DNA of 20,332 nucleotides from a virus, in IMG/VR virus record IMGVR_UViG_3300031784_000243, positions 1 to 20,332 of that record; one strand, written 5' to 3'. The position numbers and the translations under genes were made by a program. This document shows, in pieces, positions 1,084 to 18,525 of this stretch; the stretch's first letter is position 1, and each line of letters opens with the position of its first letter. Under the pieces are notes generated by a model. The model searched no databases, had not been told where the DNA came from, and was given only the letters and a program-made list of their open reading frames with translations.

Positions 1084-2175
1084 ATAGCCGTCAACTGCCA
1101 AACTAGCGCCCTTACGGGCTCCGATGGTCTGATCACCTTCAAGCCTGCAGGTGTTCAGTTCTGTCTGTCTGACGCAACTGACTTCCCTGCCGGCAAGTAC
1201 CTGACCGTGCCTGGCAACCATGACTACCGCGTGGGCGACCCCGTGGTGTTCAAGACGGAAGGTGCTGGTGTGCTCGACACCGCGCTGACCGCCAACACGA
1301 AGTATTTCGTGGTGGATGTCAACAAGACCAGCATCGCCGTGTCCGCCACCAAGGGCGGCGTGCCGATCACCCTTGCTGGCGCTGGCGGCCAAGCCGGCTC
1401 CGGCATCGCCACTCTGGCTGCCGCTACTGCCGGTGCGGGCTACGTCCCTGGCACCTACACCGATGTCCGCCTGGTGCAGACAACCGGTGGTGGCAGTGAG
1501 TCCAGCGCCCGCGCCACCATCGTGGTTCCTGTTGGCGGTGCTATTAACGCTGGTGCCATCACGATCTCCTCGGCTGGTAAGGGCTACACCACTGGCGCTG
1601 GCTCCATCAGCCTGAGCGGCGGCCGCAACGCTGCCGGCGATGCGATCGACAAGACCGCTCCCGGTACTGCCTTTAGCGGTACTGCCACGCTGACCACCGC
1701 TCGGGAAAACACCACCGGTCACATCAACATCGGTTACTCCGAGTACAGCGTGACCTGCATGGTTCAGGAATGGAGCCTGGACTTCAGCCGTGAATCCATC
1801 GACATCACCACCCTGCCTTGCAGTGTTGGTGGCGATGCTGACAAGTACGCCTCCTTCCGCACCACCATCCCTGGCTTCGCCAGCGGTTCTGGCTCGATGA
1901 GCGTTCTGTTCTCTGGTGACAACACCAGCATGAGCAGCCGCCTGATTGCCAACTCGCTGTTGAAGTCTCAGGCCGGTGCCACGGTGAAGCTGTACGTCAA
2001 CGCCATCGAAGGCTCTGGCGGCATCATGGACGACACCGCTTCGTCCTATATCGAGGCACCCGTCTCGCTGGAGGGCTTCTCCATCTCGGTGAACACCTCC
2101 GACGCGATCGTGGCTTCGATCAACTTCAGCCTGTCTGGTCCCCCCAGCCACCTGTTCAACCTCAACCTCGCCTGA
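1084..2175 (+). CDS. Major tail (tube) protein with an inserted beta domain
   Basis: From an ATA start the product is 363 residues. The first GTG (1207) would remove 41 residues, including FKPAGVQFCLSDATDFPAGKY, which continue naturally into LTVPGNHDYRVGDPVVF, so an upstream start is likely. Residues of about 33-98 resemble the 'H-x-Y-x-x-GD-x-V' domain common in phage tail proteins. Residues of about 99-206 hold Gly-rich repeats (AGAGYVPGTYTDV and AGKGYTTGAGSI). The C-terminal part of about 150 residues has the tube-like motif VQEWSLDFSRESIDITTL. It is followed by PGFASGSGSMSVLF and ends with a short NLNLA tail. The gene lies after the tail terminator and before the chaperone, as expected for the tube subunit. 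A strong terminator follows. Two smaller proteins at 13042 and 13488 share the C-terminal motif. Confidence 0.75.
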   Translation: MAVNCQTSALTGSDGLITFKPAGVQFCLSDATDFPAGKYLTVPGNHDYRVGDPVVFKTEGAGVLDTALTANTKYFVVDVNKTSIAVSATKGGVPITLAGAGGQAGSGIATLAAATAGAGYVPGTYTDVRLVQTTGGGSESSARATIVVPVGGAINAGAITISSAGKGYTTGAGSISLSGGRNAAGDAIDKTAPGTAFSGTATLTTARENTTGHINIGYSEYSVTCMVQEWSLDFSRESIDITTLPCSVGGDADKYASFRTTIPGFASGSGSMSVLFSGDNTSMSSRLIANSLLKSQAGATVKLYVNAIEGSGGIMDDTASSYIEAPVSLEGFSISVNTSDAIVASINFSLSGPPSHLFNLNLA

Positions 2176-2198
2176 TACAACTCGGTCGAGGAGAGCTT

Positions 2199-2221
2199 GC
2201 CCCGCGAAAGCGGGGCTTTTT
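2199..2221 (+). terminator. Rho-independent terminator after the tail-tube gene
   Basis: A perfect 7-bp GC stem (GCCCCGC at 2199-2205 with GCGGGGC at 2210-2216) closes a GAAA tetraloop and is followed by five T residues. It lies 23 bases after the tube-protein stop, so the abundant tube transcript could end here. Confidence 0.9.
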
Positions 2222-2235
2222 ACTGGCACAAGATC

Positions 2236-2241
2236 TATACT
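2236..2241 (+). promoter_or_regulatory. -10-like box TATACT before the chaperone gene
   Basis: TATACT matches five of six bases of the sigma-70 consensus TATAAT. It stands 14 bases after the terminator T-run and 25 bases before the chaperone ATG. I see no convincing -35 element. Similar boxes (TAGACT or TAGATT) occur before four other genes in this window. Confidence 0.5.
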
Positions 2242-2266
2242 TACCTGAGTAACGCTGAATGACTGC

Positions 2267-2632
2267 ATGGCATCTGCCATCCGCGCCATCGACCGCCTGA
2301 AGAACGCCGCCAACCTGGTGCCCGCCCGCAAGGATGTGGAGCTGCACGACGGCAGCATCTTCACGTTCTGGTCCCGTCCCCTGACGATGGCTGAGCGGGA
2401 CAAGGCTCAGCGCACCGCCAAAGGTGATGACGCCAATGCCTTTGCCCTGCAACTGCTGGTGGACAAGGCCCTCGACGAAGGTGGGCAGCGCTTGTTCCAG
2501 CCCGCCGATCTAGCCGAGCTGAAGCACGAAGTGCGGGATGAGGATCTGCAGAAGCTGATGCTCGCTGTCCTCACCAGCGCGGAGGATGAGGAGCCGCTGG
2601 AGCCCAAAAGTTCTACAGGCGGAGCTAAGTAA
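2267..2632 (+). CDS. Tail assembly chaperone, gpG-like
   Basis: This 121-residue protein lies between the tube gene and the tape measure, the place of lambda gpG, which coats the tape measure before the tube polymerises. It begins with a helix, followed by the compact beta segment VELHDGSIFTFWSRPLTMAE. The rest is helical and acidic (ALQLLVDKAL, ADLAELKHEV, DLQKLMLAVL, AEDEEPLEP). Near its end, codons CCC AAA followed by A form a likely slip site from which ribosomes could enter the +1 frame and make the longer gpGT-like product. If they do not slip, translation ends at TAA 2630-2632. No strong Shine-Dalgarno sequence is seen. Confidence 0.8.
   Translation: MASAIRAIDRLKNAANLVPARKDVELHDGSIFTFWSRPLTMAERDKAQRTAKGDDANAFALQLLVDKALDEGGQRLFQPADLAELKHEVRDEDLQKLMLAVLTSAEDEEPLEPKSSTGGAK
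2603..2610 (+). other. Putative +1 programmed frameshift site CCCAAAAG
   Basis: In the chaperone frame the codons read CCC AAA AGT. The downstream gpT-like frame is offset by +1 and reads CCA AAA GTT over the same bases. A tRNA-Lys on AAA can slip one base forward and still pair with AAA, and tRNA-Pro could move from CCC to CCA. A -1 slip, as in lambda, would lead into a different frame, and a -2 slip leaves poor pairing. The fusion would have 175 residues. Confidence 0.6.
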
Positions 2633-2795
2633 GGACAACTGGCTGCTGCTGTCGTTCGCGGTGGCCAAGGAACTCGGGATGACCCTCACCCGCCTCTGGG
2701 CGGAAGTAACCCCCGAGGAGTTGTTGGGCTGGAGCGCCTACTTCGGGTATCTGAACGACCAGCAGGAGAAAGCCATGAAGCGGGCCCGCCGATAG
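2610..2795 (+). CDS. gpT-like extension of the tail chaperone (+1 frame, gpGT fusion)
   Basis: The +1 frame supplies about 61 residues after the slip site, to TAG at 2793-2795. The sequence includes LLLSFAVAKELGMTLTRLWA and EELLGWSAYFGYLNDQQEKA. The pattern 'LA-x-x-LG-x-T-x-x-x-L-x-x-x-x-x-x-EL-x-x-W-x-AY' is characteristic of gpT-like halves of tail assembly chaperones, which bind the tube protein. The frame could also start by itself at ATG 2586, but that lies inside the first gene and has no evident ribosome binding site. The 3' end forms part of the terminator stem. Confidence 0.75.
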   Translation, partial: VLQAELSKDNWLLLSFAVAKELGMTLTRLWAEVTPEELLGWSAYFGYLNDQQEKAMKRARR

Positions 2796-2806
2796 GCCCG
2801 CTTTTT
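2780..2806 (+). terminator. Rho-independent terminator at the end of the chaperone gene
   Basis: GCGGGCC (2780-2786) pairs with GGCCCGC (2795-2801) across an 8-base loop, and TTTTT follows. The stop codon of the gpT-like frame lies partly inside the hairpin, so a translating ribosome could affect termination. Confidence 0.85.
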
Positions 2807-2816
2807 ACTGCCCGCT

Positions 2817-2822
2817 TAGACT
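2817..2822 (+). promoter_or_regulatory. -10-like box TAGACT before the tape measure gene
   Basis: TAGACT follows the terminator T-run by 10 bases and precedes the TTG start by 27 bases. The downstream bases GAGGTAACGC resemble CTGAGTAACGC after the box at 2236. This repeats the terminator-then-box arrangement seen in front of the chaperone. Confidence 0.5.
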
Positions 2823-2849
2823 GAGGTAACGCGGTTAGGGCCTGAGTTC

Positions 2850-5800
2850 TTGGCTGACTACAACCAGAACATCAAGGTCACCGCCGACACCAAGCAGGCA
2901 GAACGCCAGCTGGACAAGCTGACCGGGCAGCTTGAACAGCTGCAGCGAGCAGGTGGGCTGAAGTTTGAGCTGTTTGGTAGTGGCGCTGGATTAAAGAACG
3001 CCGTCAGCGGGAACTTGCCCGCTGCGTTGAAACGCACCGGCGAAGCATTTGGTTCAGGTAGTGCGCAGGTCAAAAAGTTTTCGCTGGCTGTCCGCACTCT
3101 GGACAGCCAGATAAAGAGTGGCGCAATACGCGGAGGCGTTGGTGCTTTAGGTCTGGCACTTGCCAAGATGGCGCCTGCCACCGCACCAGCGGTAAAGAAC
3201 GTTGGCGCCCTGACGACTGCCCTAACAGGGCTGGTGGCCAAGACCACTGGCCTTGTTGGAGGCATGGGAGCCGCTGGCGCCGCCATTGCTGGTGTCGGCG
3301 CTGGCATTGATACCGCAGCCAAAGCAGCCGTTGGCGGTAGCAACGCCATTCAGGAACTGCTGCTCTACCTGAAGGATCTTCCGAACAGCTGGGGCTTGGC
3401 GGCGGTTGCTGCCATGGCGTTCGCGCCTGCGGCCATCACTGCCGGCAAAGCAATCAACAATGCGGTTGGTACGCAGGCGACCACAAAGCTTGCTGAATTC
3501 ACCGCCGGAATCCGGAACGCTGCCTCTGCAACGGAGAAGCTGGAAGGCAGTGTCATCTCGGCAGGAGATGCGTTCGAGGCGCTGCTGCAGGGGTCATCCC
3601 TCAACGAGCTCAACGCGCAGCTTCGTGACGCGGTAAAGCAGTCCGGCGCGTTTGAGTCCAGCACCGTCCAGGCATGGGAGGCCGCGCAGCAGCTGGCCTC
3701 CGCGATGAAGCTCCAGACGGCGGAGCAGAAGGAGATCAACGATCTGGTTCGGCAGGCCAGGGGCCTGCAGTCCCAGGACGTTCGGGACACCGAGGTGTCG
3801 CGGCGGATGGCACTGCTCACCTCCGGTCGCAACGCCCAGAAACAGATGGCGACCGAGCAGGCCCGCCTCAACACCGAGCTGGAGGACTACGCCCGCCTGG
3901 CTGCGGAGGTTGCAGCGCAGACCAAGGCATGGGCCGACAACCTCACCCGCGTGGAGCGTTCCAGCAAGGCGGGCGTGCTGGGCAACAAGAGCCAGATCCA
4001 GGCTCGCTTGGAGGAGATGCGGGAGAACAACCGCAGCGCCCAGATCGCCCGCGAACGCAGCGCCGCCCTCCAGGGCAAGGCATACGGACTGAACCAAGTT
4101 CCGGCTGGCGGCCAGCTGTTCCCCGGCGGCAACACCATGACGGCCCAACCGGGTTACCGGGCCGTCCAGAACGCTGCTGCCACCTACAAGCAGGCCGCCG
4201 AAGCCGCCCGGCCGCTGCTGCAGCAGGCCGAGCAGCGCACGATCCTGGAGGGCAAGTCGCTGCAGGTGGTACGCAACCGCACCAATGCTCTGCGCGAGCA
4301 GGCCGCGATTGACAAGAACTCAATCGCAATCCTGCGCCAACAAAACGCCGAGCGGATCAAAGCGGCCCAGCTGGATGAACGTGCCCTGACGGTGGCCCGC
4401 CGACAAACCCAACTGGCCGACCTGCGCAACAAGAAGAAGAAGGGCGAAGAACTGCAGGGCCGATTCGAAAACACCTTGGTTTCCGGTGCCTTCCCGCTGC
4501 TATTCGGTGCTGGCCCCTTGGCCACCCTCGGCGGCTTTGCCGGTGGCGCACTGGGGAGCAAGAACCCAATGATTGGGGTCTTTACCAGCGCCATCGGCCA
4601 AATGGTCGATCAGTTCGGGGCGGCCGCCATCGACATGGGCAAGGCCCTGCGCGACCCGATCACCAACTTCCAGAAGATCGCCGATGCGGGGCTGCTGGCC
4701 AGCAAGAGCCAGGAGTATTACGTCCAGCGGCTGATCGAGGTGGGGCAGATCAGCAAGGCCACCGCCGTGATCCAGGGCGAGTTGATCAAGAAGATTGGCG
4801 CCTCCGGCGTCAGCGATCTGCAGCGTGCTGGCGCTGAAGCCGACAAGCTGTCGAAAGCCTGGGCCGAGCTGAACCTGCAGATGCAAGCCGCCTTGGCTGG
4901 TCCGCTTGCGAGCTTGTTGTCGTGGATTACTGCTGTCGTTCGCCTGCAAGGAGGACAAAACAGCGGAAACAGTCAATTTGAAGAAATCAGCAAGGCCCTA
5001 AGTCCTGAGCTAAGGAAGAAGTTCCAAAATGAGATCTACAAAGTGCGCGAGGGCGCCACGGCGTTTTCGCCTGATCTAGACAAGCGAAGAGCGCAACAGC
5101 AAGCGATATTTGACAAGTATCGCGGGCTTGCCCCCTCACTTGGCGTCAAGGGCACGACCGACTCCCCAGAAGCACAGCAGCAAGCGGCGGAAGCGCGGCT
5201 GGCTACGGCAGAGCGTGCCGAAGAGTTGCGCCGTCAGGGCGTCCAGCTGGAGCTGGCAGCGGTGGATCAACGCCGCAACATTGAGGATCAGGTCTTCAGC
5301 TTCCGTCGCCGGGCGGCTGATTTTGAGCGCGCCAACCTTGACCTGAAGCGCAGCATTGAAGATCGAATCTTTGACCAGCGCCAGAGCATTGCGCGGCAAG
5401 AGTCGGACAACCTGCGCCAGCGCGACCAGCTGGCGATCGACCAACGCGACCGCGCCCTCAGCGGACTGCGGCTCACGGGCAACCAGCCTGGCACTGAGCT
5501 GGCGAACCAATGGCTGGACGCCACTCGCACTTACATCAAGGCCCGCAGCGAAGGAGAAGCCAATCTTCGGGAGAAAGAGCGCACCTTCCGCATCGACATG
5601 GCGGACTTTGAGCGTGAGGCGTACAAGTTCCGTTTGCAAGTGGAGCGCACGGTCGGCGATCTCAAGCGTCAAGCCGTGGACTACGAGCGCGACGTCCAGA
5701 AAACCATCCTCCAGAACGAGCGCTGGCTGCTGGATCGCCGCATCGCCGTCGCCGACTACGAGCTAGCGCAGCGCAAACAAGGCATTGCCGATGAGGCAGA

Positions 5801-7637
5801 CGCCGCCAAGCGCCTACAAATGACGAACGCCGCCATCACCAGCGTCACTGGTGGCGGAGGTGGTGCCGGAGCCCAGTCTGTTCTGGCGGCCGCCAACAGA
5901 AACCTTGGGCTATTTGCCGGGGAGTCGGAGCGGTGCGCGGATGCCATGCGGGTGCTGTTCAAAGAGGCCAACATCGGCATTGGTGTCACGAAGCAAGCCT
6001 GGGATGGCTTGGCCTCGGGCGGTCGGCTGGCTAGCAGTTTCTTCGGCTCCGACATCGGCCAGAAGATCACGAACATCCGCGACCTACGCCCTGGTGACTT
6101 GGTGGGCTTTGAGCGCACCTACGGCAACTGGGGCAAGGGGGTCCAAACCCACGTCGGCGTGTACGCGGGCGGCGGAATGATGTACGACCACAGCTCGCGT
6201 GGGGGGCTGACCAAACGCCCACTCAGCACGTTCGAGGGCAAGTTCATGTACGGCGTTCGCCCGAACGCCTACGGCGCAGGCAGTCCTGCCACCACCCAGA
6301 TGTCGCCGATCTTCCAGCGACCTGGGGCAGCCGCCAACAATGTTGTGCCCACCGGCGGGCTGGCGCGTCCCGACCTGTCCATGCCGAGCTTCAGCGCTCC
6401 GGGTGTCAAACCCATTGATGTCTCGGGACTGCTTGCTCAGAGCGACGCCTTAAAGACCCAGGGCGCCAAGCTCAAACTTGAAGCGCATGAGATCGGTAAA
6501 CAGACGGCAAAGGCACTGATTGACGGCGCCAAACAGGACTTAGACCAGCAGCTCAAAACCCTCCAGGCGCAACTGACGAAGCCCTTTGACGAGATGCTGC
6601 TCGACCAGCAACAGCAGGCGGACTATCAAAAGCAGTATTCCGAGCTATTAAGCAAAGGCATCCTCCCCGACCTTGCGGAGCAACTCGTCAATATCCGCCA
6701 GCAGGTGGAGCTTAAGGTACAGGAGCTTAATCTTGCCATCGCCGTACAGCAAGCAGTCGTTGACGCACTGAAGACTGAATACGATAAGACCAAAGATTTA
6801 GAGAGGAAAAGTGAGATAATGGCGCAGCTAATTGAGCAGCAAGAGTATCTCAACAAGCTCAAAGGGATTGAGCCGTCCATTCGGGAAGGAGGCAGGAAAG
6901 CCGAAGGTGGCGCCACCCAGGCCCAGTCCTCAGGGCAACGCCTGCAGGACGCCTACACCAAAGTTCAAGGCGAGCTGAACGCGCTGCTGGACCCGGTGAA
7001 CCAAGTGATCGCTGGCGCCAACGCCATCGGTGCCGCCTTCGGTGACGCCTTCCGCGGCATCATCAGCGGCTCGATGAGTGCCCGGGAGGCGCTGTCGCAG
7101 ATGTTCCAGCAGATCGGCGCCCACTTCATCGACATGGCGACCCAAATGATCGCCAAGTACCTGGAGATGAAGCTGATCGGACTGGCTCAGAGCTTCCTGG
7201 GCGGTGCTGCTGGCGGCGCCGGTCCGGTGGCGATGCCTGGCGCTGGTGTGGGCGGCGGCAGCTCGATGTTCATGCCCGGCGCACCGAGCTTCTTCGCCAC
7301 CGGCGGCTTCGTCACTGGTCCCACCCGCGCCGTCATCGGCGAGGGTGGCGAGAGCGAGTACGTCATCCCCAGCAGCAAGATGGGCGCGGCAATGTCCAAC
7401 TACCGCGCCGGTCGCCGTGGTGCCGGCGTGCTCGAAGGCGGCGGCGAAGCGGGCGGCGGTGGTGGCACCTTCACCCTGGAGACCGTGGTGATTAACCGCC
7501 AGGAATACGCCACGATTGAGCAGGTGCGAGAGATGGGCGCTGCCGCTTCCCGCCGGGGTGCTGAAGGCGGACACGCCAAGTCGATGGGCGCCCTGCGTAA
7601 CAGCAGGTCCCAGCGGGCACGGTTGGGGATCCGCTGA
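2850..7637 (+). CDS. Tail tape measure protein with internal NlpC/P60 peptidase domain
   Basis: This 1595-residue protein, from a TTG start preceded by TTAGGG, follows the chaperone and sets tail length. Alternating helical and Gly/Ala-rich hydrophobic stretches occur at about 92-160, and LVSGAFPLLFGAG to GGALGS at about 544-572 looks membrane-active. Residues of about 770-1010 form a long charged coiled coil with an imperfect 25-residue repeat (RNIEDQVF from R809 and RSIEDRIF from R834). A probable NlpC/P60 endopeptidase follows: Cys1029 in ERCADAMRVLF, RPGD at 1080-1083, and His1101 in THVGVYAGGGMMYDHSS. It would cut peptidoglycan during DNA entry. The C-terminus has the motif FATGGFVTGPTRAVIGEGG, then SEYVIPSSKM, common in lambda-type tape measures. 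Two AT-richer segments suggest mosaicism. The stop overlaps the next ATG (TGATG). Confidence 0.92.
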   Translation: MADYNQNIKVTADTKQAERQLDKLTGQLEQLQRAGGLKFELFGSGAGLKNAVSGNLPAALKRTGEAFGSGSAQVKKFSLAVRTLDSQIKSGAIRGGVGALGLALAKMAPATAPAVKNVGALTTALTGLVAKTTGLVGGMGAAGAAIAGVGAGIDTAAKAAVGGSNAIQELLLYLKDLPNSWGLAAVAAMAFAPAAITAGKAINNAVGTQATTKLAEFTAGIRNAASATEKLEGSVISAGDAFEALLQGSSLNELNAQLRDAVKQSGAFESSTVQAWEAAQQLASAMKLQTAEQKEINDLVRQARGLQSQDVRDTEVSRRMALLTSGRNAQKQMATEQARLNTELEDYARLAAEVAAQTKAWADNLTRVERSSKAGVLGNKSQIQARLEEMRENNRSAQIARERSAALQGKAYGLNQVPAGGQLFPGGNTMTAQPGYRAVQNAAATYKQAAEAARPLLQQAEQRTILEGKSLQVVRNRTNALREQAAIDKNSIAILRQQNAERIKAAQLDERALTVARRQTQLADLRNKKKKGEELQGRFENTLVSGAFPLLFGAGPLATLGGFAGGALGSKNPMIGVFTSAIGQMVDQFGAAAIDMGKALRDPITNFQKIADAGLLASKSQEYYVQRLIEVGQISKATAVIQGELIKKIGASGVSDLQRAGAEADKLSKAWAELNLQMQAALAGPLASLLSWITAVVRLQGGQNSGNSQFEEISKALSPELRKKFQNEIYKVREGATAFSPDLDKRRAQQQAIFDKYRGLAPSLGVKGTTDSPEAQQQAAEARLATAERAEELRRQGVQLELAAVDQRRNIEDQVFSFRRRAADFERANLDLKRSIEDRIFDQRQSIARQESDNLRQRDQLAIDQRDRALSGLRLTGNQPGTELANQWLDATRTYIKARSEGEANLREKERTFRIDMADFEREAYKFRLQVERTVGDLKRQAVDYERDVQKTILQNERWLLDRRIAVADYELAQRKQGIADEADAAKRLQMTNAAITSVTGGGGGAGAQSVLAAANRNLGLFAGESERCADAMRVLFKEANIGIGVTKQAWDGLASGGRLASSFFGSDIGQKITNIRDLRPGDLVGFERTYGNWGKGVQTHVGVYAGGGMMYDHSSRGGLTKRPLSTFEGKFMYGVRPNAYGAGSPATTQMSPIFQRPGAAANNVVPTGGLARPDLSMPSFSAPGVKPIDVSGLLAQSDALKTQGAKLKLEAHEIGKQTAKALIDGAKQDLDQQLKTLQAQLTKPFDEMLLDQQQQADYQKQYSELLSKGILPDLAEQLVNIRQQVELKVQELNLAIAVQQAVVDALKTEYDKTKDLERKSEIMAQLIEQQEYLNKLKGIEPSIREGGRKAEGGATQAQSSGQRLQDAYTKVQGELNALLDPVNQVIAGANAIGAAFGDAFRGIISGSMSAREALSQMFQQIGAHFIDMATQMIAKYLEMKLIGLAQSFLGGAAGGAGPVAMPGAGVGGGSSMFMPGAPSFFATGGFVTGPTRAVIGEGGESEYVIPSSKMGAAMSNYRAGRRGAGVLEGGGEAGGGGGTFTLETVVINRQEYATIEQVREMGAAASRRGAEGGHAKSMGALRNSRSQRARLGIR
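5271..5423 (+). repeat. Imperfect 25-residue tandem repeat in the tape measure coiled coil
   Basis: Two adjacent units beginning at residues 809 and 834 share the pattern R-x-IED-x-[VI]-F-x-x-R-x-x-x-A-x-x-E-x-x-NL. Such rod-like repeats fit a length-measuring helical segment. The DNA copies have diverged. Confidence 0.55.
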
Positions 7638-8170
7638 TGACAACGCAAGCGATCACCAACTTCGTCCGCATCACCGACAAGGCGGGTGTGGTGCAAGGCC
7701 GCTACCAGAACGGCAAGGTGGGCGAGGTGATCACCCTCGACGGCGAGGACTACAGCTACCTCTCGTTCCTGTACCGAGGCGCCACGCGCAACCGCACTGG
7801 CGACAACCTAGAGGCTGAGCTGATCCTGGCGAGCAACCGCCTGGCCATGAGCATCGGTGCCCAGGCGGTGCAGCGCAAGTGGTATGCGCGGGTGACCACC
7901 TGCACGATGCACCCGCGCACCTTCGCAGTGGGTCGCAAGCTGACGCGTGACACTTGGCTGGCGGCATCAATGAGCTACGACCCCGAGCAACTGACGGTGT
8001 TGCTGAGCAGCGGCATTGATGCGGTCGGCGCTAATGCTCCCACCCGCTGCCTGACCAGCGATCTGGTGGGTCAGCTGCCCTCGACCAGCGCAATCAGCAA
8101 CCGCGCTTGGATCGGGGCGCTGTTGCTAGGGCCTCTTCTGTTGTCCATCCTTGGCGCAGTCTGTATCTGA
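7637..8170 (+). CDS. Minor tail protein (distal tail / tail-tip connector)
   Basis: This 177-residue protein begins one base inside the tape measure stop and occupies the lambda gpM/gpL position, where distal tail proteins link the tube to the tip. The first half is beta-rich (FVRITDKAGVVQG, GEVITLDGEDYSYLSFLYRG). The middle has AMSIGAQAVQRKWYARVTTC, then WLAASMSYDPEQLTVLLSSG. The segment RCLTSDLVGQLPSTSAISNR reads like a natural C-terminus, but the frame continues for about 21 hydrophobic residues from W158 (WIGALLLGPLLLSILGAV). The last 45 bases overlap, antiparallel, the 3' end of the HNH gene. The hydrophobic tail may therefore have been gained when the endonuclease inserted. I do not recognise a precise family. 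Confidence 0.7.
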   Translation: MTTQAITNFVRITDKAGVVQGRYQNGKVGEVITLDGEDYSYLSFLYRGATRNRTGDNLEAELILASNRLAMSIGAQAVQRKWYARVTTCTMHPRTFAVGRKLTRDTWLAASMSYDPEQLTVLLSSGIDAVGANAPTRCLTSDLVGQLPSTSAISNRAWIGALLLGPLLLSILGAVCI

Positions 8171-8686
8171 TGAGCTGGGCGGGTAGGCGTCTTCTTTCAT
8201 GAGCCTTGCCTTTACGGCCTTGGCCTTTTCAAAATCTATGGTTGAGAGCACATACTTTCCCCGGTGACTGACGGCGTAGCGAGGGACGCAGCGACCACGG
8301 CGGCGGTCCATGTGGATTGAGATGCCAGCGACGCCGGTAGTGTTGTCAGAACGGATATTTCTGTTCAGACAATTATCTGAAGGCGACAAGAGGCGAAGAT
8401 TCCACGGTCTGTTGTCAAACGCATTGCGATTGATGTGGTCAAGTTGCAAGCCGGCGGGCACATCCCCATTGCCTAGCCACTTCCAGATCAAGCCGGCAAC
8501 CGAGTATGACGTGTGTTCTATTTCGCAGTACAGGTAGCGTTTCTGGCTAATCAGAAATCCTGCGGGGCGTCCCCGACGGCGGTGCCCCCAGGAGACGGGG
8601 GCGTCTTCTTTCCAGTACAGGATGCCTTTCAAAGGGTCAAGACTAAACAGGTCCCAGAGGTGGCTAGCTTCGGGGAGGGGCTTCAT
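8126..8686 (-). CDS. HNH homing endonuclease with AP2-like DNA-binding C-terminus
   Basis: This 186-residue protein lies on the strand opposite to all neighbouring tail genes. Residues of about 63-110 hold the HNH core: VAGLIWKWLGNGDVPAGLQ, then LDHINRN with the metal-site Asp83-His84, DNRPWNLR with Asn96, and SPSDNCLNRN with Asn105 and Asn108. After it, TGVAGISIHMDRRRGRCVPR and GKYVLSTIDFEKAKAVKARL look like an AP2-type DNA-binding fold, a common partner of phage HNH enzymes. Such free-standing enzymes cut endonuclease-free copies of the locus and spread by repair. It probably has its own promoter (TATAAT on this strand, 8723 to 8718). The first 125 residues seem intact, with no sign of decay. 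Confidence 0.9.
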   Translation of the reverse strand: MKPLPEASHLWDLFSLDPLKGILYWKEDAPVSWGHRRRGRPAGFLISQKRYLYCEIEHTSYSVAGLIWKWLGNGDVPAGLQLDHINRNAFDNRPWNLRLLSPSDNCLNRNIRSDNTTGVAGISIHMDRRRGRCVPRYAVSHRGKYVLSTIDFEKAKAVKARLMKEDAYPPSSSDTDCAKDGQQKRP

Positions 8687-8717
8687 TGCTAGCTAGGGGC
8701 AGGGCGGGATGGGTTTC

Positions 8718-8723
8718 ATTATA
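8718..8723 (-). promoter_or_regulatory. TATAAT -10 box for the HNH gene
   Basis: On the minus strand the sequence is a perfect TATAAT, 31 bases before the HNH ATG at 8686. No good -35 is visible. It sits directly beside the start of the plus-strand gene at 8731. Because the host tail operon runs the other way, an independent promoter is needed for expression. Confidence 0.55.
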
Positions 8724-8730
8724 GGCGCAA

Positions 8731-9111
8731 ATGATTGAGGCGCACCGCTTGGTAGGGATGAGGTTCAGGCTGGGAGCCGACCCTGAGCGGCATGGCGCTA
8801 CTGACTGCTTGGGGCTGTGCCGAGCGGTGCTGAGCACCTATGGCATTGAGACACCGCGCCCTACGAGGTCGTGGTATCGGCGTTTGCGACAGCGCGACTG
8901 GTCGGTGTTTCCTGAGCAGCTGAGTCTTTGGGGGGAAGTAGTCGCAGAACCTAGACTGAGGGGAACGGTGGCCTTGTGCCGATCTGAAGAAGGCGGCTAT
9001 GGCTTGGCAGTGTCTTGGGCGGATGGATGGCTGAGTTTCCAGATGGCTCAAGTTCGCTGGTCCCCCATCAATCAACTGCAAGTCACCGCGCTCTACTGCC
9101 CGTCGAGGTAG
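8731..9111 (+). CDS. NlpC/P60-like tail-tip protein (gpK position), catalytic His apparently missing
   Basis: The 126-residue product resembles the peptidase half of lambda gpK, a tail-tip protein. HRLVGMRFRLGADPERHGA leads into TDCLGLCRAVLSTYGI, which has the NlpC/P60 nucleophile at Cys26 preceded by Asp25. In active relatives a His-Val-Gly segment follows some 50-70 residues later. Here the matching stretch reads GYGLAVSWADGWLSF (residues 89-103) and has no His, so hydrolase activity is doubtful. The tape measure carries an intact-looking NlpC/P60 domain. The 3' end overlaps the next gene by up to 85 bases. No clear Shine-Dalgarno sequence precedes the ATG. Confidence 0.75.
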   Translation: MIEAHRLVGMRFRLGADPERHGATDCLGLCRAVLSTYGIETPRPTRSWYRRLRQRDWSVFPEQLSLWGEVVAEPRLRGTVALCRSEEGGYGLAVSWADGWLSFQMAQVRWSPINQLQVTALYCPSR

Positions 9112-12100
9112 CGCTGTGCGAGGCGATTGGCATCAACGCCGAGGAGTATTTCTACTTCCAGCAGCTGAGCGATGCCTACAACGGCAAGCGCCCTGAGGAG
9201 TATGACCTGGCCGGCGTGCCGGATGTCAGGAACGGCCCGGTAACGCTGTTCATTGTCAATCTCGTCATCGGCATTGCGCTGACGGCGATTGGTGCCCTGC
9301 TGGCACCGAAGCCGCAGCAGCCGAAGACACCGCCGTCGCTGAAAACCAGCGATGCCAACGGCGCCAAGCGCTATGCCAGCACCGAGAACTTCGACAGCGT
9401 TCAGCAGTTGGCGGCACTGGGAGAGGTCATCCCCCTGGTCTTCGCGCACCGTGACCGCAAGGGAGCCGGCGGCGTCCGCGTCAAGGCGATGCTGCTCTGG
9501 AGCCAGCTGCTTAGTCGTGGCACCGGCCAGCAACTCAAGGCGCTGATGTTGCTGTCGATGGGGCACCTGAGCACTCGCCCTGACTTCGCCGGCTATGCCA
9601 TTGGCGACCAGACACTGAAGAACTACACCGCAGCGAAGGTGGCGCTGTACATGCGTAAGAGCGGCGGGCGGGTGCTGGAGAGCGACCGCTACAACAAAGG
9701 TCAACTGGAGGAATCACCTGCCACCGATGTCTTCACGGTCTGGGATGACGCCGAAGCCCGCTACGAGCCCTGGTTTAGTGGCACCCGCACTCCCTCCACC
9801 CAGACGCAGTTCGGTTGCTACGCACCGATGGCTAACGGCTGCCGGTACCGCCTCACCTACGAGCTGGTGCTGATCCCCCAGGACATGGACAGCAAACTCA
9901 AGGAAGACAACCGCACCAAGATCGACAAGCTAAAGCGCAACTGGCCCTCGCGTCAGGGCTTCGTCGGTGGCATCAACGGGTTCAACCCAGTTGGCTCCCT
10001 GCTGACCTACAAGATCAGCGGCGAGAAGCAAGACAAAGCCTACGAGCCTTGGGGGGTTGATGATGTCCGCGCCTCGATTGAGGACCGGCGTCTACTGACC
10101 GACACGTTGATCACCAACGGCGACCAGTACCTGGCGGGCAACGCCCTGGTGAACTGCGAGTCGCAGAGCGACTTCATCTGGCTGACCGGGCGCGACAAGA
10201 TCTTCAAATTCCGCGTCCTTGAAGGTGGCAACTGCCGGGTGGACGGCACCATCAGCGATGGGCAGCCGTTCCACTGGCAGCTGCAGCGGGTGGCGATTGG
10301 CACGATCGCCAACACCCGCGCCTGCGATGTCACCGAGCTGGGCATCAAGAGCACGGTCTGGCGGCAGATGAGCTTCCCCAATGTCAACAGCCAGCCCGAC
10401 GAGAAGACCATTGAGCGCTACGAGAACAGGAACGGCAGCATCCAGCTGGGCCAGCTCAACCGCTACATCAAGCGTTTCAGCTTCTTCCGTCTGCAGTGGC
10501 GGGTGCTCGGCACTGACGACGGCTGGCGCAACCTGAGCGGCGGCGTGCCGTTTGCCGTGCGCGGACTGGCGCCCACTGCCCAGTACAACTTCATCCGCAT
10601 CCGCCACCCGCGACGCGGGCAGTACGAGTTCCGCATGTTGCCAGTGCCAGGCGCGGAGATTTTCTACTCGTGGAGGAACCGTCAGGTGCGGCTGCTAGTG
10701 CCGGGTCAGCTGCAGAGTTACCACCAAGACGGCTTCTTCGTGGTCTACGCCGGTCAGATGCTCACGATGACGCCAAACGAGATGAGCAACAAGCAGTGGA
10801 TCGTGGGGCAGCCACCTCCGAAGCAGAACAACATCTCCGGCCTGAGCATCAACTCCAAGGGCACCCGTCCGATTGGCTGGGTCCTCAGCGATACACGCTA
10901 TAACCGCAACAGTGATTTTGTTGCCATCGCTGTCACTGGCGTATATCGGATCGTCCTCAAGGGTCAGATCATCAAATACAGCCGCACCGGCAAGTTCAAG
11001 CCAGTCGTTGACGGCAGCCGTCGCTTCAATATCGGTGCTGCCAAAGACAATGTGATCTTCGAGCAGCTGCATGAGCTGCGGATCGAGACGCTAGGCCCCG
11101 AGGCGCCTACCACCAGCTGGACCGTACCGATTCATGGCGGCAGCGGCAGTGGCGCCAAGGCCACGGTCAACCGTTACTCCAATGGCGCTCTGGACTGGAG
11201 CGTGGCGGACGGCGGCAACGGGTACAACCAGAACGACACGGTGTACATCCAGCCGCCCGGCTACGGCCCGATCTACATGACAGCGGCCATCCCGATTGAC
11301 AGCTACCTAGAGGAAAACCTCAATCCATTTGATGCCGTCGCGGATTACAAGATCTACGACGGTGAGAGCATGAGCCATGAGAATGAGCCTGAGCATGAGG
11401 TCGTCTATGTGAATGAACAACTGGCGCAGTCAGTAGTCCCGAACTACGACCACCTGGCTCTGGTTGGTCTGCGGCTGAACTCCACCAAGGAGTGGACGAA
11501 CTTCCAAGAGCTGTCGGCGTATGTTCGCAACGGCATCGAGGTGGAGCGGTTGTGTGACGACAACGGCAACCCGATTGCTGAGGGCACCCGCAACGCCACG
11601 CAGAACCTGCCAGAGATCGCCTACTGCCTGCTGACCGACGAGCTGATCGGCGCAGGCAAGACAGTGGGCAAGGCTGCGGTCAACCGTGATCGGATGCAGG
11701 AGGCGGCCCGCTTCTGCTACGCCAATGGCTTCAATTTCGACGGGGTGATTGGCGCCAAGCTCAACCTGCGCGACTGGATCTTCCAGCAAGCCGGCTACTG
11801 CCTACTCGACTTCACGGTGCTCGGCGGTCAATTCAGCCTGGTGCCATCGGTGCCAGCCACCCGTGCCGGGGTCATCGACTTCGCCGCCAAACCCGAGATC
11901 AAAGCCCTCTTCACGGACGGCAACATCAAGGATCTCAAGGTGACCTGGCTGAGCCCCGAGGAGCGGCAGCCGTTCAAGGCAGTGATCAGCCTGCGGGAGG
12001 AAGTGGACAACGGCTTTGCCCGCACCCGCACCGTTTCAATGCGGCTGTCTGATGGGCTGGGTGGCAACGACGCTGACCCCGAGGAAACCTTCGACTGGAG

Positions 12101-12608
12101 CGACTGGTGCTGCAGCGCTGAGCACGCGATGCTTTTCGCCAAGTACGCCTTGAAGCTGCGCAAGCTGGTGGATCACGGCATCGCCTTCGCCACCACGCCC
12201 GCCAGCGCCTTGGGGCTGTCACCTGGTGATTACATCCGCCTGGTCTCCGAGGTGACGCACACCAGCCGCTTTAACAATGGCAGCATCGACAGCGAGGGGC
12301 TGATCACCAGCACCACCACGCTGGCGAACGGGGACCATCCGGTGCTGATCTGGAAGCCGGGAACGGTGGGCGTGACCCAGACCACGCTGACGGTGCGCGA
12401 TGGCCGCGCCCAGCAGGGCGGGCTCTACAGCACGGTGTTCACCATCGCCAACAGAACCACCACCAGTCGCGTCTACAAAGTCGAGAGCTTGACGATCGGC
12501 GACGAGGGCTTCGTCGAGGTGGCGGGCAGCTATCAGCCGATCACGGATGACGGCAAGTTGGCCGCTTTACAGTGGGCGGACAGCGACTTTGTGCTGGAGC
12601 TGGGCTAG
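9027..12608 (+). CDS. Large tail-tip / central fibre protein (gpI/gpJ-like)
   Basis: The frame gives 1193 residues from ATG 9027. A CTG at 9114, preceded by GAGGT (9105-9109) just past the upstream stop, is a credible alternative start and would drop 29 low-complexity residues. An N-terminal hydrophobic segment (VTLFIVNLVIGIALTAIGAL, about residues 72-91) recalls gpI-like proteins. It is followed by ALGEVIPLVFAHRDRKGAGG, then VKAMLLWSQLLSRGTGQQL, the type of start seen in gpJ-like host-specificity proteins. Around residues 705-745, GSGAKATV and GGNGYNQNDTVYI match the Gly-rich beta motif of the tube protein. The C-terminal third (from about NGIEVERL) has the domain order typical of gpJ-like baseplate hubs. 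It would close the tube tip and contact the host surface. The stop overlaps the next GTG (TAGTG). Confidence 0.82.
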   Translation: MAEFPDGSSSLVPHQSTASHRALLPVEVALCEAIGINAEEYFYFQQLSDAYNGKRPEEYDLAGVPDVRNGPVTLFIVNLVIGIALTAIGALLAPKPQQPKTPPSLKTSDANGAKRYASTENFDSVQQLAALGEVIPLVFAHRDRKGAGGVRVKAMLLWSQLLSRGTGQQLKALMLLSMGHLSTRPDFAGYAIGDQTLKNYTAAKVALYMRKSGGRVLESDRYNKGQLEESPATDVFTVWDDAEARYEPWFSGTRTPSTQTQFGCYAPMANGCRYRLTYELVLIPQDMDSKLKEDNRTKIDKLKRNWPSRQGFVGGINGFNPVGSLLTYKISGEKQDKAYEPWGVDDVRASIEDRRLLTDTLITNGDQYLAGNALVNCESQSDFIWLTGRDKIFKFRVLEGGNCRVDGTISDGQPFHWQLQRVAIGTIANTRACDVTELGIKSTVWRQMSFPNVNSQPDEKTIERYENRNGSIQLGQLNRYIKRFSFFRLQWRVLGTDDGWRNLSGGVPFAVRGLAPTAQYNFIRIRHPRRGQYEFRMLPVPGAEIFYSWRNRQVRLLVPGQLQSYHQDGFFVVYAGQMLTMTPNEMSNKQWIVGQPPPKQNNISGLSINSKGTRPIGWVLSDTRYNRNSDFVAIAVTGVYRIVLKGQIIKYSRTGKFKPVVDGSRRFNIGAAKDNVIFEQLHELRIETLGPEAPTTSWTVPIHGGSGSGAKATVNRYSNGALDWSVADGGNGYNQNDTVYIQPPGYGPIYMTAAIPIDSYLEENLNPFDAVADYKIYDGESMSHENEPEHEVVYVNEQLAQSVVPNYDHLALVGLRLNSTKEWTNFQELSAYVRNGIEVERLCDDNGNPIAEGTRNATQNLPEIAYCLLTDELIGAGKTVGKAAVNRDRMQEAARFCYANGFNFDGVIGAKLNLRDWIFQQAGYCLLDFTVLGGQFSLVPSVPATRAGVIDFAAKPEIKALFTDGNIKDLKVTWLSPEERQPFKAVISLREEVDNGFARTRTVSMRLSDGLGGNDADPEETFDWSDWCCSAEHAMLFAKYALKLRKLVDHGIAFATTPASALGLSPGDYIRLVSEVTHTSRFNNGSIDSEGLITSTTTLANGDHPVLIWKPGTVGVTQTTLTVRDGRAQQGGLYSTVFTIANRTTTSRVYKVESLTIGDEGFVEVAGSYQPITDDGKLAALQWADSDFVLELG

Positions 12609-13012
12609 TGGCATCCGTTGAGTTCCCTGCCATCAGACCCACCGGCAGGTCGTACAGCCCCGGTACTTATCCGTCAGCTGAGTTCAAGGCATTAAACGGC
12701 GCGACGACACGGATGCTGTTTGGCAACCGTCGCAGCGACGCGGAGCTGAGCCTGGAGTTTCAAAACATCAGCGATGACGATGCTGCGCTGATCCTCGAGC
12801 ACTACGAGCGGGTGGTGCCCAGCGATGATTGGGTGAGCTTCACGAATACCACCGGCGCTGAGGGAGCATCTGCGGCGCTGCGCCCGTACCTAAAGGAGAA
12901 TGGTGACAGCGGCCTGCGCTGGCGTTATGCCGATGCCCCGCAGATCAGCAGCGTCTTCCGTGGACGCAGCACCGTCCAAGTCACCTTTGTTGGCCAACTG
13001 GACGCCGCCTAG
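12608..13012 (+). CDS. Small minor tail protein
   Basis: A GTG start overlapping the previous TAG (TAGTG) gives 134 residues, MASVEFPAIRPTGRSYSPG onward. The sequence is beta-rich with the segments NGATTRMLFGNRRSDAELSL, FQNISDDDAALILEHYERV and RGRSTVQVTFVGQL. Proteins with an 'F-x-x-x-x-P-x-x-x-x-x-PG-x-x-P-x-x-x-x-x-x-x-NG' opening occur downstream of tip proteins in marine and freshwater phages, but I cannot name the family with certainty. The stop TAG is also the first half of a TAGACT box. Coupling by overlap suggests it is made in ratio with the tip protein. Confidence 0.7.
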   Translation: MASVEFPAIRPTGRSYSPGTYPSAEFKALNGATTRMLFGNRRSDAELSLEFQNISDDDAALILEHYERVVPSDDWVSFTNTTGAEGASAALRPYLKENGDSGLRWRYADAPQISSVFRGRSTVQVTFVGQLDAA

Positions 13013-13015
13013 ACT
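13010..13015 (+). promoter_or_regulatory. -10-like TAGACT box overlapping a stop codon
   Basis: TAGACT contains the stop TAG of the preceding gene and lies 26 bases before the GTG at 13042. The following TTCAGCGTGA is nearly the same as TCAGCGTGA after the box at 14361. Confidence 0.4.
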
Positions 13016-13041
13016 GACTTCAGCGTGATGCGGTCGTAACC

Positions 13042-13488
13042 GTGCCTTTCTATAGCGGCCAGCAGGGTCAACTGTTCATTGATGGAGTCAAGGCTGCACA
13101 TGTGCAGAACTGGTCCTTCCAGACCAGCCAGGCCGTGCTGGACACCACCGGCCTGGGAGACACCGACCGCACGATTACTCCGGGAGTGCGCAGCACCAGC
13201 GGCAGCTGCCGACTCTTCTACTACCAAGCCACAGCCGGCGGTGGTGGCGATGTAACCAAGCTACTGAACAAGTGCGTGAAGGACGGCAAAGGTGAAGGCG
13301 ACGGAAAAGCCGCTGACTCAAGCTCAGCCAAGCTGAAGCTGATGGTGGCGGATGGCAGCACCGCTGGCCGCTACATCGAGATGTACTGCTTCCTGACCAA
13401 CATCTCCATGTCGATGGCGGTGGGTGAGGTGCTGTCGGCGGATGTGAGCTTTGAAGCCAATGGTGCCCCCACCGGCGTCCTCATGTAA
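13042..13488 (+). CDS. Tail-tube-like protein, second copy of the fold
   Basis: This 148-residue protein starts with GTG (VPFYSGQQGQLFIDG). It has the motif VQNWSFQTSQAVLDTTGLGD (residues 21-40), followed by TPGVRSTSGSCRLFYY and a C-terminal FLTNISMSMAVGEVLSADVS then FEANG. These match the C-terminal domain of the protein at 1084-2175 (VQEWSLDF..., PGFASGSGSMSVLF, ISVNTSDAIVASINF). It therefore probably adopts a tail-tube or distal-ring fold, but it is much shorter and lies after the tip genes. It may form an extra ring, a decoration, or a fibre adaptor. The stop overlaps the next ATG (TAATG). Confidence 0.72.
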   Translation: MPFYSGQQGQLFIDGVKAAHVQNWSFQTSQAVLDTTGLGDTDRTITPGVRSTSGSCRLFYYQATAGGGGDVTKLLNKCVKDGKGEGDGKAADSSSAKLKLMVADGSTAGRYIEMYCFLTNISMSMAVGEVLSADVSFEANGAPTGVLM

Positions 13489-14363
13489 TGGCTGTCTATC
13501 TAGGTGACTCGGGCTTTGTTGAGCTAAAGCGCGACACCCTCGGCGACGAACTGATCACGCAGCTGGACCCGGCGGATGTCAACGAGGACCGCCGCCGCTT
13601 CTCGGTGGATTTTGCGGCGGGTTCACTGGTCACCGGCGATGCGGTCGAGATCGCAACGCTGGACGGCAGCGACCTGCAGCTGGTGGCGGGGCACAACTAC
13701 CCCGATGGGCGTTGGTATGTGCATGTGGACCCCGCTGGCGGGCTGCGTCTGTACAAGAGCTTTGAGGCATCACTGACGGGGCTGATGGAAACAGCGCTGC
13801 CGCTGGAGACACCTGCGGTTGCTAAGCAGGTGAGCATCCGCACCCGCAACAGCCGCTTCCGTCCGATCGGGCGGATCCGCGAGTTCGAGCTGACCACCAG
13901 CCGCGAGACGGTGGATGTGACGCTGCTGGGCAAGGAGTTCCGTCAGCACTACGAGGCGGGCTTGATCAGCGGGCAGGGGTCAATGACCACGCTCTGGGAG
14001 CACAGCTACAGCCTGTGCGACCCGACTTACAGCTCAAACGCACCCGAGTTCCCGGTCTACTTGGCACGGCTGGTGCTGCGTATTCAGCAGGGCGCCGACT
14101 TCTTGGGGCGCTTTTTCATCTACCACGACTCGGATGAAACGGGCGGGCAGAATCCGAGCGTTTGGTATGAGGGCGATTGCATCGTCACCAATGTGGCGGT
14201 AACGGTGCGCCCCACGGAAGTGATCGAGGCGAGGGTGGAGTTTGTCACCAGCGGCACGGTCGCGCTACACCTGGGCAGGCCACCTTCTTACCTGCTGCAG
14301 GAAGACGGAGAGAGGATCCTGCAGGAGAGCGGAGACGGTTTGCTCTTGGAGTGGGAGACCTAG
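13488..14363 (+). CDS. Tail-tube-like protein, third copy, with an N-terminal extension
   Basis: The 291-residue product has a unique N-terminal domain of about 125 residues (MAVYLGDSGFVELKR onward, LVTGDAVEIATLDGSDLQLV). The tube-type motif follows: IREFELTTSRETVDVTLLGK (about 130-149), AGLISGQGSMTTLWE and VTNVAVTVRPTEVIEARVEF. The end PPSYLLQEDGERILQESGDG, followed by LLLEWET, has two copies of a short 'LLQEDG-x-x-ILQE' motif found at ends of phage tail proteins. Its overlap with the 13042 gene suggests co-assembly, perhaps as a tip ring that seats the fibres encoded next. The stop TAG is part of another TAGACT box. Confidence 0.72.
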   Translation: MAVYLGDSGFVELKRDTLGDELITQLDPADVNEDRRRFSVDFAAGSLVTGDAVEIATLDGSDLQLVAGHNYPDGRWYVHVDPAGGLRLYKSFEASLTGLMETALPLETPAVAKQVSIRTRNSRFRPIGRIREFELTTSRETVDVTLLGKEFRQHYEAGLISGQGSMTTLWEHSYSLCDPTYSSNAPEFPVYLARLVLRIQQGADFLGRFFIYHDSDETGGQNPSVWYEGDCIVTNVAVTVRPTEVIEARVEFVTSGTVALHLGRPPSYLLQEDGERILQESGDGLLLEWET

Positions 14364-14366
14364 ACT
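14361..14366 (+). promoter_or_regulatory. -10-like TAGACT box overlapping a stop codon before the first fibre gene
   Basis: TAGACT includes the TAG stop of the preceding gene and lies 33 bases before the proposed ATT start. It is followed by CAAGTCAGCGTGAG, close to the sequence after the box at 13010. Confidence 0.4.
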
Positions 14367-14388
14367 CAAGTCAGCGTGAGCTGTTAGC

Positions 14389-14394
14389 AGGGGG
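14389..14394 (+). promoter_or_regulatory. Shine-Dalgarno-like AGGGGG that supports an ATT start
   Basis: AGGGGG is five bases before ATT at 14400. The only in-frame codons between the TAG at 14385-14387 and this ATT are CAG GGG GCG GCC. ATT is therefore the only plausible initiator that keeps the conserved fibre opening PDLEISKLPVL. Confidence 0.6.
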
Positions 14395-14399
14395 CGGCC

Positions 14400-16914: not shown

Positions 16915-18525
16915 GTGTCCATCAAACTGCGTTTGAAGCACAGCGCCACTGCCAATAAGGCACCGCTGCCTGGCGATCTGGTCGAGGGTGAGCTGGCACT
17001 GAACATCAACGCTGCCAGCCCTGCGGCATACATCAAGGACAGCACCGGCGCTGTTGTGAAGCTGGCGGGCGCGGGTGCAGTTACTGCAACTGCAAGTGAA
17101 ACTGTCAGTGGTGTCGTCGAGCTGGCTACAGCGGCTGAGACCACCGGCGGCACCGACAACACCCGCGCCGTCCACCCGGCTGGCTTGAAGGTTGAGCTGG
17201 ACAAGAAGGCACCACTAGCCAGCCCGGCACTGACCGGGGCACCGACGGCACCTACGGCAGCGGCGGGCACCAATACGACGCAGCTGGCCACGACAGCGTT
17301 CGTCCACGCAGCGACACCCAACGCCAGCGCGACTGTGCCTGGCCTGGCGCAGTTGGCGGATGCAACTGCGATCACGGCTGGTACGGCTGGTCGAGTGGTG
17401 GATGCTGCTCAGCTGAAGGCGGTCAGCGACGCTGACGATTGGTCCCGCACCGGCACCACACTGTCGCCAAAGACTGCTGGCGATGTGGTCAACATCTCTG
17501 CAGGGACTGCAGCGCTGCCTGGCCTGGCGGTGGTGGGTGACGCTGGCACTGGCCTGTCCTCACCGGGCCCAGGGCAATTAGCCATCAGCAGTAATGGGAC
17601 TGGAAGGTTGTTTGTTGATGCGAATGGAAGGCTAGGTGTTGGCGTAGCCTCTCCTGGATTCGCTCTAGACGTAGCCGGCACCATAAGGAGTTCTTCCACA
17701 CTTAAGGTTGATAGCACGACTCAATTTAGGCTACTGGAGTTCCTGAATAGTGGCACAAGATTAGGCTTTGTCGTATTTGATAGTGTTAATAATGCGCTAG
17801 GGTTTAACGCAGAAAGTGCAGGTGCTTATCAAGTATTCAACACAGGAGGCTCCGAACGCCTGCGCATCACCTCGGCAGGGCTCGTCGGGATTGGCACAAC
17901 GAGCCCTGGGTTCCCTCTTGATGTAGTTGGTACCATCGGCACCACTCCAGCATTAGCCAACTCTGGGTCCCTTTTGCTCTCAGGAAACTCAGGAGCTGCG
18001 GCGGGTTGCACAATCGAATCTTCGTTTACAAGCGGTGGCTATGGTCCGCTGTTGTTCAAAGTAAACAATGGTGAGGCCGCCCGCATCGACTCCAGCGGCA
18101 GGCGCTTATTAGTTGGAACGTCTACGACTTCCAGCGTTACTACTCTGCTTTTGCAGGGTAACTCCAGTGGCGGTTCTGAAGCCGCAATTCTTCGGCTTGC
18201 TCGTGGTGCATCTGCTCCTGCTGATGGAACGAGCTTAGGAGCTATTTCTTTCCAAGATTCCGGGCATGTAGGCGCTGCTGCCGTTCTTGCCGCACGAGAT
18301 GGTGGCACGTGGACATCCGGCAGTAGCCAACCAACGCGCCTGGTGTTCTCCACTACTGCCGATGGGGCGGGTTCTCCGACGGAGCGGATGAGGATCAAGA
18401 GCACTGGCACGATTAACTTTTCCACCGTTGCGACCTATGCCGACAACACTGCTGCCAAGGCTGGCGGCCTTGTCGCTGGTGACATCTACCGCAAGGCTGA
18501 TGGCACCCTGATGATTGCCTTCTAA
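16915..18525 (+). CDS. Second tail fibre protein with mosaic distal part
   Basis: This 536-residue protein opens with IKLRLKHSATANKAPLPGDL and then VEGELALNIN, a virion-attachment start known in many phage fibres. At about residues 97-131 is a classic fibre module (ASPALTGAPTAP followed by TTQLATTAFV). From about 220 there are two copies of 'GxGRLFVDANGRLGVGxxSPGxxLDVxGTI' (SERLRITSAGLVGIGTTSPG in the second), then related partial copies (ARIDSSGRRLLVGT, ERMRIKSTGTINFS). The last part, VATYADNTAAKAGGLVAGDI then YRKADGTLMIAF, is a conserved C-terminal end in some phage fibres. GC content is about 73% at 17221-17280 but about 38% at 17761-17820, so the distal adhesin is probably a recent acquisition. 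No S74-type self-cleaving chaperone domain is seen. Confidence 0.82.
   Translation: MSIKLRLKHSATANKAPLPGDLVEGELALNINAASPAAYIKDSTGAVVKLAGAGAVTATASETVSGVVELATAAETTGGTDNTRAVHPAGLKVELDKKAPLASPALTGAPTAPTAAAGTNTTQLATTAFVHAATPNASATVPGLAQLADATAITAGTAGRVVDAAQLKAVSDADDWSRTGTTLSPKTAGDVVNISAGTAALPGLAVVGDAGTGLSSPGPGQLAISSNGTGRLFVDANGRLGVGVASPGFALDVAGTIRSSSTLKVDSTTQFRLLEFLNSGTRLGFVVFDSVNNALGFNAESAGAYQVFNTGGSERLRITSAGLVGIGTTSPGFPLDVVGTIGTTPALANSGSLLLSGNSGAAAGCTIESSFTSGGYGPLLFKVNNGEAARIDSSGRRLLVGTSTTSSVTTLLLQGNSSGGSEAAILRLARGASAPADGTSLGAISFQDSGHVGAAAVLAARDGGTWTSGSSQPTRLVFSTTADGAGSPTERMRIKSTGTINFSTVATYADNTAAKAGGLVAGDIYRKADGTLMIAF

Follow-up and report, generated by a model that had tools for sequence, protein, structure and literature searches.

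The siphophage tail module encoded on the + strand of the viral record IMGVR_UViG_3300031784_000243 carries, besides the gene of its main tail tube protein (TTP), two further genes whose products, here called T2 and T3, are homologous to TTP and are encoded between the J-like hub gene and the tail fibre genes. Our analysis suggests that T2 and T3 probably serve as dedicated tail-tip adaptor rings that anchor the fibres, and that they are produced from one coupled gene pair. The window, that is, the whole stretch of DNA analysed, is the complete IMG/VR record of 20,332 bases and is probably a fragment of a genome. An earlier note on this DNA had proposed that two duplicates of the tube gene were recruited near the fibre genes to build additional rings or a fibre collar; the role proposed there agrees with the one favoured here, while the origin proposed for the two genes holds only in part.

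Homology and predicted fold of TTP, T2 and T3

The proposal started from a motif order common to the three proteins, and the six peptides quoted in support of it were all found in the reading frames to which they had been ascribed; the coordinates given for TTP were also correct (Table 1). The third motif is indeed present in all three proteins, but its core had been written one x short and reads v-x-x-a-x-v-x-F-x-x-x-G, the three occurrences being AIVASINFSLSG, EVLSADVSFEANG and EVIEARVEFVTSG.

BLASTP detected the similarity of TTP to T2 at E=2e-9 (28% over 140 aa), that of TTP to T3 at E=7e-6 and that of T2 to T3 at E=5e-4. When the Smith-Waterman scores were compared with those of 500 shuffles, a score as high was never obtained for TTP-T2 or TTP-T3 and was obtained once for T2-T3. 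Family alignments were built from relatives of T3 (A1, n=24), T2 (A2, n=26) and TTP (A3, n=14), and profile-profile comparison of the whole families gave E values of 2.7e-12 for T2-TTP, 3.7e-11 for T3-TTP and 2.7e-6 for T3-T2. With the cores alone these values were 3.1e-13, 1.7e-11 and 7.6e-7, respectively, whereas the five column-shuffled controls scored 0.04 to 0.5; a chance similarity is thus ruled out by both the shuffled sequences and the column-shuffled profiles. All 26 members of the T2 family match two major-tail-protein PHROGs, 10528 and 1407, and 18 of the 24 members of the T3 family match the major tail protein PHROG 10528 at E<=0.1; a comparison of the family profiles with PDB sequences gave no real match. 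Together, these comparisons confirm at the level of sequence that TTP, T2 and T3 are homologous.

The identity of TTP is based on PHROG 1407, the place of its gene and its relatives; for T2 and T3, AlphaFold2 models were made, with predicted local distance difference test (pLDDT) values of 79.5 and 73.3, respectively. A Foldseek comparison of the T2 model with the PDB returned tail-tube proteins throughout its best matches, including those of monocin (E=1.2e-5), lambda (gpV, E=1.7e-5, prob 1.00) and roseophage R4C (E=3.3e-5), as well as 80alpha and the gene transfer agent (GTA); the matches to the lambda gpV, monocin, R4C and GTA tube proteins span E 1e-5 to 1e-3. The T3 model also matched mostly tail-tube proteins (T1, FCWL1, Sf11, NF5, lambda and GTA), more weakly than T2 did (E 0.002 to 0.07, prob 0.9 to 0.99, template modelling scores <0.5), and among predicted viral proteins it matched mostly unnamed ones, some being named major tail protein. 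As these matches are weak, the fold assignment of T3 rests on the model and the profile match together. The earlier note had named the lack of profile similarity among the three proteins, or differing predicted folds, as results that would speak against it; profile similarity was found among all three, and the predicted folds of T2 and T3 agree with the tail-tube fold. Profiles and models therefore confirm both as predicted members of the tail-tube fold superfamily, T3 on the weaker structural match.

T2 is a bare tail-tube core that lacks a decoration insert and keeps the helix, strands and loop of the fold. The core of TTP is interrupted between its first two strands by ~190 residues of insertion, and in T3 strand 1 and strand 2 are likewise separated by an insert of ~110 residues, located at the same point. 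A decoration domain common to TTP and T3 had been suggested by a long hhalign alignment, but this candidate was rejected, since the inserts alone gave a prob of 1.2%. T3 further ends in a conserved acidic repeat tail of the type LLQE...LLQE...LLLE, which is absent from TTP; with a simple pattern, three repeats were recognized in 80 of 108 members. The protein is strongly acidic (isoelectric point 4.65).

A coupled gene pair between hub and fibre

In the window the J-like hub gene is followed by MT4, T2, T3 and two fibre genes, FIB1 lying directly 3' of T3. We examined 133 related loci (designated by L and a number), which contained 107 T3 genes from IMG/VR. The gene on the 5' side of T3 was T2 in 104 of the 107 and the contig ended there in the other three, whereas a relative of FIB1 occupied the 3' side in 97 and the contig end was reached in 10, with no exception on either side. 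The order J, MT4, T2, T3, FIB1 is fixed (the place of MT4 in one group of loci is described below); T2 and T3 always come after J, and the place of the main tube gene, from the terminator to the chaperone and tape measure genes, is held by TTP instead. With the one in the window, the 108 T3 genes form 49 clusters at 90% identity. The T2-T3 pair is thus not restricted to this record but recurs across IMG/VR; the joint presence of all three genes in other phages had been set as a check by the earlier note. The T3 start lies at -4 to +3 nt from the T2 stop in all 105 measurable cases, with a 1-nt overlap in 62 of them, a spacing which suggests that T2 and T3 are translationally coupled. Both proteins are full-length throughout and, unlike typical receptor-binding parts, usually match or exceed J in conservation.

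A profile-guided scan of IMG/VR identified at least 553 stretches encoding a relative of T3. T3 was not found in cultured phages, even when a marine member served as query and matches up to E=1 were admitted, and a single-pattern scan across 84,980 species genomes of bacteria and archaea revealed no relative of it, so that no prophage host was identified. The T2-T3 pair was likewise found in no cultured phage record, nor was a cultured member of the lineage found. A search of S-LBS1, S-CBS1, S-CBS3 and S-2L detected no T2 or T3, and nothing beyond the main TTP; in KBS-S-2A there was also nothing beyond the main TTP, but this record stops inside the J gene. Literature matches for "two tail tube proteins" were discarded, as they referred to the pelagiphage tubular proteins A and B or to two copies of one protein.

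Pairwise distances among 19 non-redundant contigs with all genes (Spearman correlation, Mantel test) revealed co-varying blocks formed by TTP and the chaperone (rho 0.63), by G6, G7 and J (0.56 to 0.76) and by MT4, T2 and T3 (0.40 to 0.42; Mantel p=0.0005 for T2-T3), with a rho of 0.09 (p=0.22) for T2 and the resident TTP. Two loci illustrate these blocks: L008 is 67% identical to the window in T2 and 61% in T3, and 33% in TTP over half its length, and L029 is 71% identical in TTP, 50% in T2, 54% in T3 and 35% in J. From the co-variation and these identities it follows that T2 and T3 move together, and with MT4, more than they do with the tube.

In a tree of the cores, T2, T3 and TTP each form a clade of their own (supports 99/99, 100/99 and 98/91). 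Such separate, well supported clades place the split among the three before the entire virus group, which means that it is not a recent duplication in the virus of the window. The closest outside relatives of T2 are the short main tube proteins of cultured phages, with S-H1 at an hhalign E of 5.4e-17; tblastn from S-H1 adds the Prochlorococcus phages MED4-184, MED4-117 and P-HS2, phage DSL-LC06 and Roseobacter phages. In S-H1 and MED4-184, whose sequences are the cultured-phage ones closest to the T2 family, this protein serves as the main tube protein and is encoded in the canonical locus, whereas T2 is an accessory encoded after J. When three short cultured-phage tube proteins were added to the tree, T2 joined them and not the resident TTP (95/82). 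Nevertheless, a constraint uniting T2 and TTP was not rejected by the approximately unbiased (AU) test (p=0.25 in the larger tree, 0.33 in the smaller), and the branches are long, so that the tree leaves both origins standing: T2 may descend from the tube gene of the resident module or from that of another phage. Of the "two duplicates of the tube gene" in the earlier note, the existence of three homologous tail-tube-fold proteins therefore stands, and descent from the resident gene is allowed by the AU values; the old separate clades, the grouping of T2 with tube proteins of other phages and a T2 divergence that does not follow the resident TTP speak against it.

In its tube locus, S-H1 (L150) has a tandem of two short tube-like genes (13582-13998 and 14001-14423), both annotated as hypothetical and similar to each other at a phmmer E of about 1e-42, which implies that the tube fold was duplicated more than once in such phages.

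The tail module of the window and the identity of MT4

The module runs from the tail terminator through TTP, the chaperone with a short reading frame, the tape measure and two small tip genes to the J-like hub (Table 1), and TTP thus occupies the canonical place between the terminator and the chaperone and tape measure genes. The J-like protein also matches PHROG 31, central tail fiber J (7.9e-5). The closest cultured relatives of TTP are the cyanophages S-2L and KBS-S-2A (45.7% identity to the S-2L major tail protein across the matched parts), and those of J, by tblastn, are tail proteins of the Synechococcus phages S-LBS1, S-CBS1 and S-CBS3. Because the nearest cultured relatives of both proteins are cyanophages, the host is likely a cyanobacterium, with Synechococcus or Cyanobium as the likely candidates.

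Table 1. Genes of the tail module in the window
Feature	Position	Strand	Remarks
Tail terminator	upstream of TTP, usual place	+	PHROG 179
TTP, main tail tube protein, 363 aa	1084-2175	+	PHROG 1407 major tail protein, 4.7e-8
Tail assembly chaperone with short following reading frame	between TTP and tape measure	+	
Tape measure protein	2850-7637	+	
J-like hub / central fibre protein	9015-12608, start uncertain	+	PHROG 27845 tail protein, 5.9e-25
MT4	12605-13012	+	probable distal-tail (gpM-like) protein preceding T2
T2, 148 aa	13042-13488	+	PHROG 1407, 3.1e-9
T3, 291 aa	13488-14363	+	shares one base with the end of T2
FIB1, tail fibre protein	14400-16853	+	PHROG 892 tail fiber, 4e-55
FIB2, second tail fibre protein	16915-18525	+	PHROG 9942 tail fiber, 1.7e-25

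All 36 members of the MT4 family match PHROG 15525 (minor tail protein) and three of the 36 match PHROG 1302 (distal tail protein), while none of them matches Pfam PF05939. The MT4 profile is similar to the PF05939 protein of S-H1 (Phage_min_tail, the lambda gpM family; hhalign E=1.7e-5, prob 79%). In addition, in the L070/L072 group MT4 lies directly after the tape measure gene, which is the place of lambda M, and T2-T3 are still found between J and FIB1. These profile matches and this location indicate that MT4 is probably the distal tail ring protein. Lambda gpM, whose topology is identical to that of the tube domain, connects the tube to the hub (PMC10721106). MT4 would thus be the counterpart of the siphophage distal tail protein, a ring of tail-tube topology between tube and hub; T2 differs from it in showing no profile similarity to MT4, which was therefore rejected as a fourth sequence-detectable copy. 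In S-LBS1 (L004), S-CBS3 (L005) and S-CBS1 (L006), a related J-like protein is also followed by MT4-like genes, but two of these take the place of MT4-T2-T3.

Several other features of the module deserve mention. The start codon of TTP at 1084 is ATA, with no ATG, GTG or TTG, and is the likely initiation codon, a rare one for a gene expected to be highly expressed; at the same position, L067, L076 and L077 have ATA, L070 and L072 have ATT, and the other relatives inspected have GTG. Judging from its relatives, FIB1 likely starts at the rare codon ATT as well (14400; IPDLEIS...), preceded by a G-rich stretch; at this position L033, L049 and L058 have TTG. A glycine-rich "G-Y" stretch in the TTP insert (1400-1690; GYxPGTYT...GKGYTTG), over which there is a weak PHROG 4406 match, resembles by eye one near residues 730-765 of J (SGAKATV...GGNGYNQND). 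The tape measure contains an NlpC/P60 peptidase domain at residues 1028-1125 (about 5930-6230; 2e-5, above the Pfam cut-off), and a separate weak NlpC/P60 match lies at 8731-9111. Finally, an HNH endonuclease gene (HNH_3, 4.3e-9; 8126-8686) is located on the minus strand, against the direction of transcription, between two tip genes, which overlap or abut in relatives; its presence may have changed the C-terminus of the upstream tip gene.

Candidate fibre-anchoring rings at the tail tip

The function put forward in the earlier note, that of additional rings or a collar for the fibres, remains the most likely one for two proteins that are fixed beside the fibre genes and for which p140 and p132 of T5 provide a precedent (PMC10038345). 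We propose that T2 would form a decoration-free ring adjoining the distal tail ring, and that T3, which has an inserted domain and an acidic tail of repeats, would most likely form the neighbouring ring or a collar, onto which the FIB1 fibres would be grafted. Such rings would presumably be hexameric, with a matching copy number, a position at the tip and contact with the fibres. More tentatively, T2 and T3 might possibly make up a hetero-ring or a two-ring fibre socket, the MT4-T2-T3 block being inherited together and exchanged among viruses whose main tubes differ.

In T5, the p140 ring follows the last TTP ring and precedes the distal tail ring; it has the TTP fold without the Ig domain and is thought to be the product of a TTP duplication despite 9% identity, and it is surrounded by the p132 collar, which bears the side fibres (PMC10038345). 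T2 and T3 are likened to p140 by fold and place: in each case an extra TTP-fold protein that diverged from the resident TTP is encoded with the tail-tip genes and linked to fibre attachment, and T2, like p140, lacks a decoration domain, while T3 carries an insert with no detectable relation to that of TTP. T5 differs in combining one TTP-fold protein with an Ig-fold collar, where here two TTP-fold proteins are paired, and its authors regard p140 and p132 as landmarks of T5-like phages, anchoring elsewhere being expected to differ (PMC10038345). T4 also has a TTP-like protein, gp54, next to gp48 (PMC10038345). These TTP-like rings are placed between baseplate and tube, but they belong to a contractile tail, initiate tube and sheath, and are not encoded between a J-like hub and the fibres.

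Some observations weigh against the adaptor rings. Such rings are not generally needed, since the fibres of roseophage R4C connect to its hub-megatron complex and the description of that phage mentions no additional ring of the TTP fold (PMC10276861). Pfam and PHROG scans of the window proteins, made with no structure search, revealed no gene for an Ig-fold collar like that of T5 p132. Confidence in the T3 model is medium, none of its PDB matches falling below E=0.001, and the distances of T3 correlate weakly with those of TTP (rho 0.32, p=0.002). Moreover, the proposed tail-tip role is drawn from genes and predicted models.

The fold that T2 and T3 share with TTP would also allow one or both to be minor or alternative tube subunits, variant or decorated, mixed along the tube, and T2 resembles proteins that serve as the sole main tube protein in other phages, while the tandem tube genes of S-H1 lie in the canonical locus. 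This seems improbable to us, given that T2 and T3 stand beside the hub and fibre genes in every contig and that T2 does not co-vary with TTP although TTP does so with its chaperone. The tail-tube fold superfamily includes terminator and head-tail joining proteins, and an action at the head end could be imagined on this ground; it is very improbable, as a tail terminator gene is already present in the usual place upstream of TTP and T2 and T3 match major-tail-protein families instead of terminators.

Somewhat less improbable, though still unlikely, is that T2 and T3 are fibre-base adaptors or fibre assembly factors that kept the fold without forming a continuous ring of the tube. The strict adjacency of T3 and FIB1, the insert and the conserved C-terminal repeat tail of T3, and the many roles that the tail-tube fold serves in virions would all suit such a function. 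On the other hand, the nearest relatives of T2 are genuine tube-forming proteins, whose fold elements it retains, and the fibre adaptors considered in the T5 study, p132 and BppU of TP901-1, have the Ig fold and not that of TTP (PMC10038345). We therefore favour tail-tip adaptor rings as the probable function of the pair.

Tube-fold rings at the tail tip are already known; what appears to be new is a fixed T2-T3 pair between hub and fibre. As T2 scores as a "major tail protein", it is likely to be an annotation trap, and the pair provides a further case in which several parts of one tail are built on a single fold. Little is known of how siphophages outside the T5 group attach their side fibres, and T2 and T3 offer concrete candidates for a fibre socket, being encoded precisely between the hub and fibre genes of an aquatic lineage that is very common. 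If this holds true, the T2-T3 socket would represent a second, independent solution to fibre anchoring, beside p140 and p132 of T5, across an abundant uncultured lineage.

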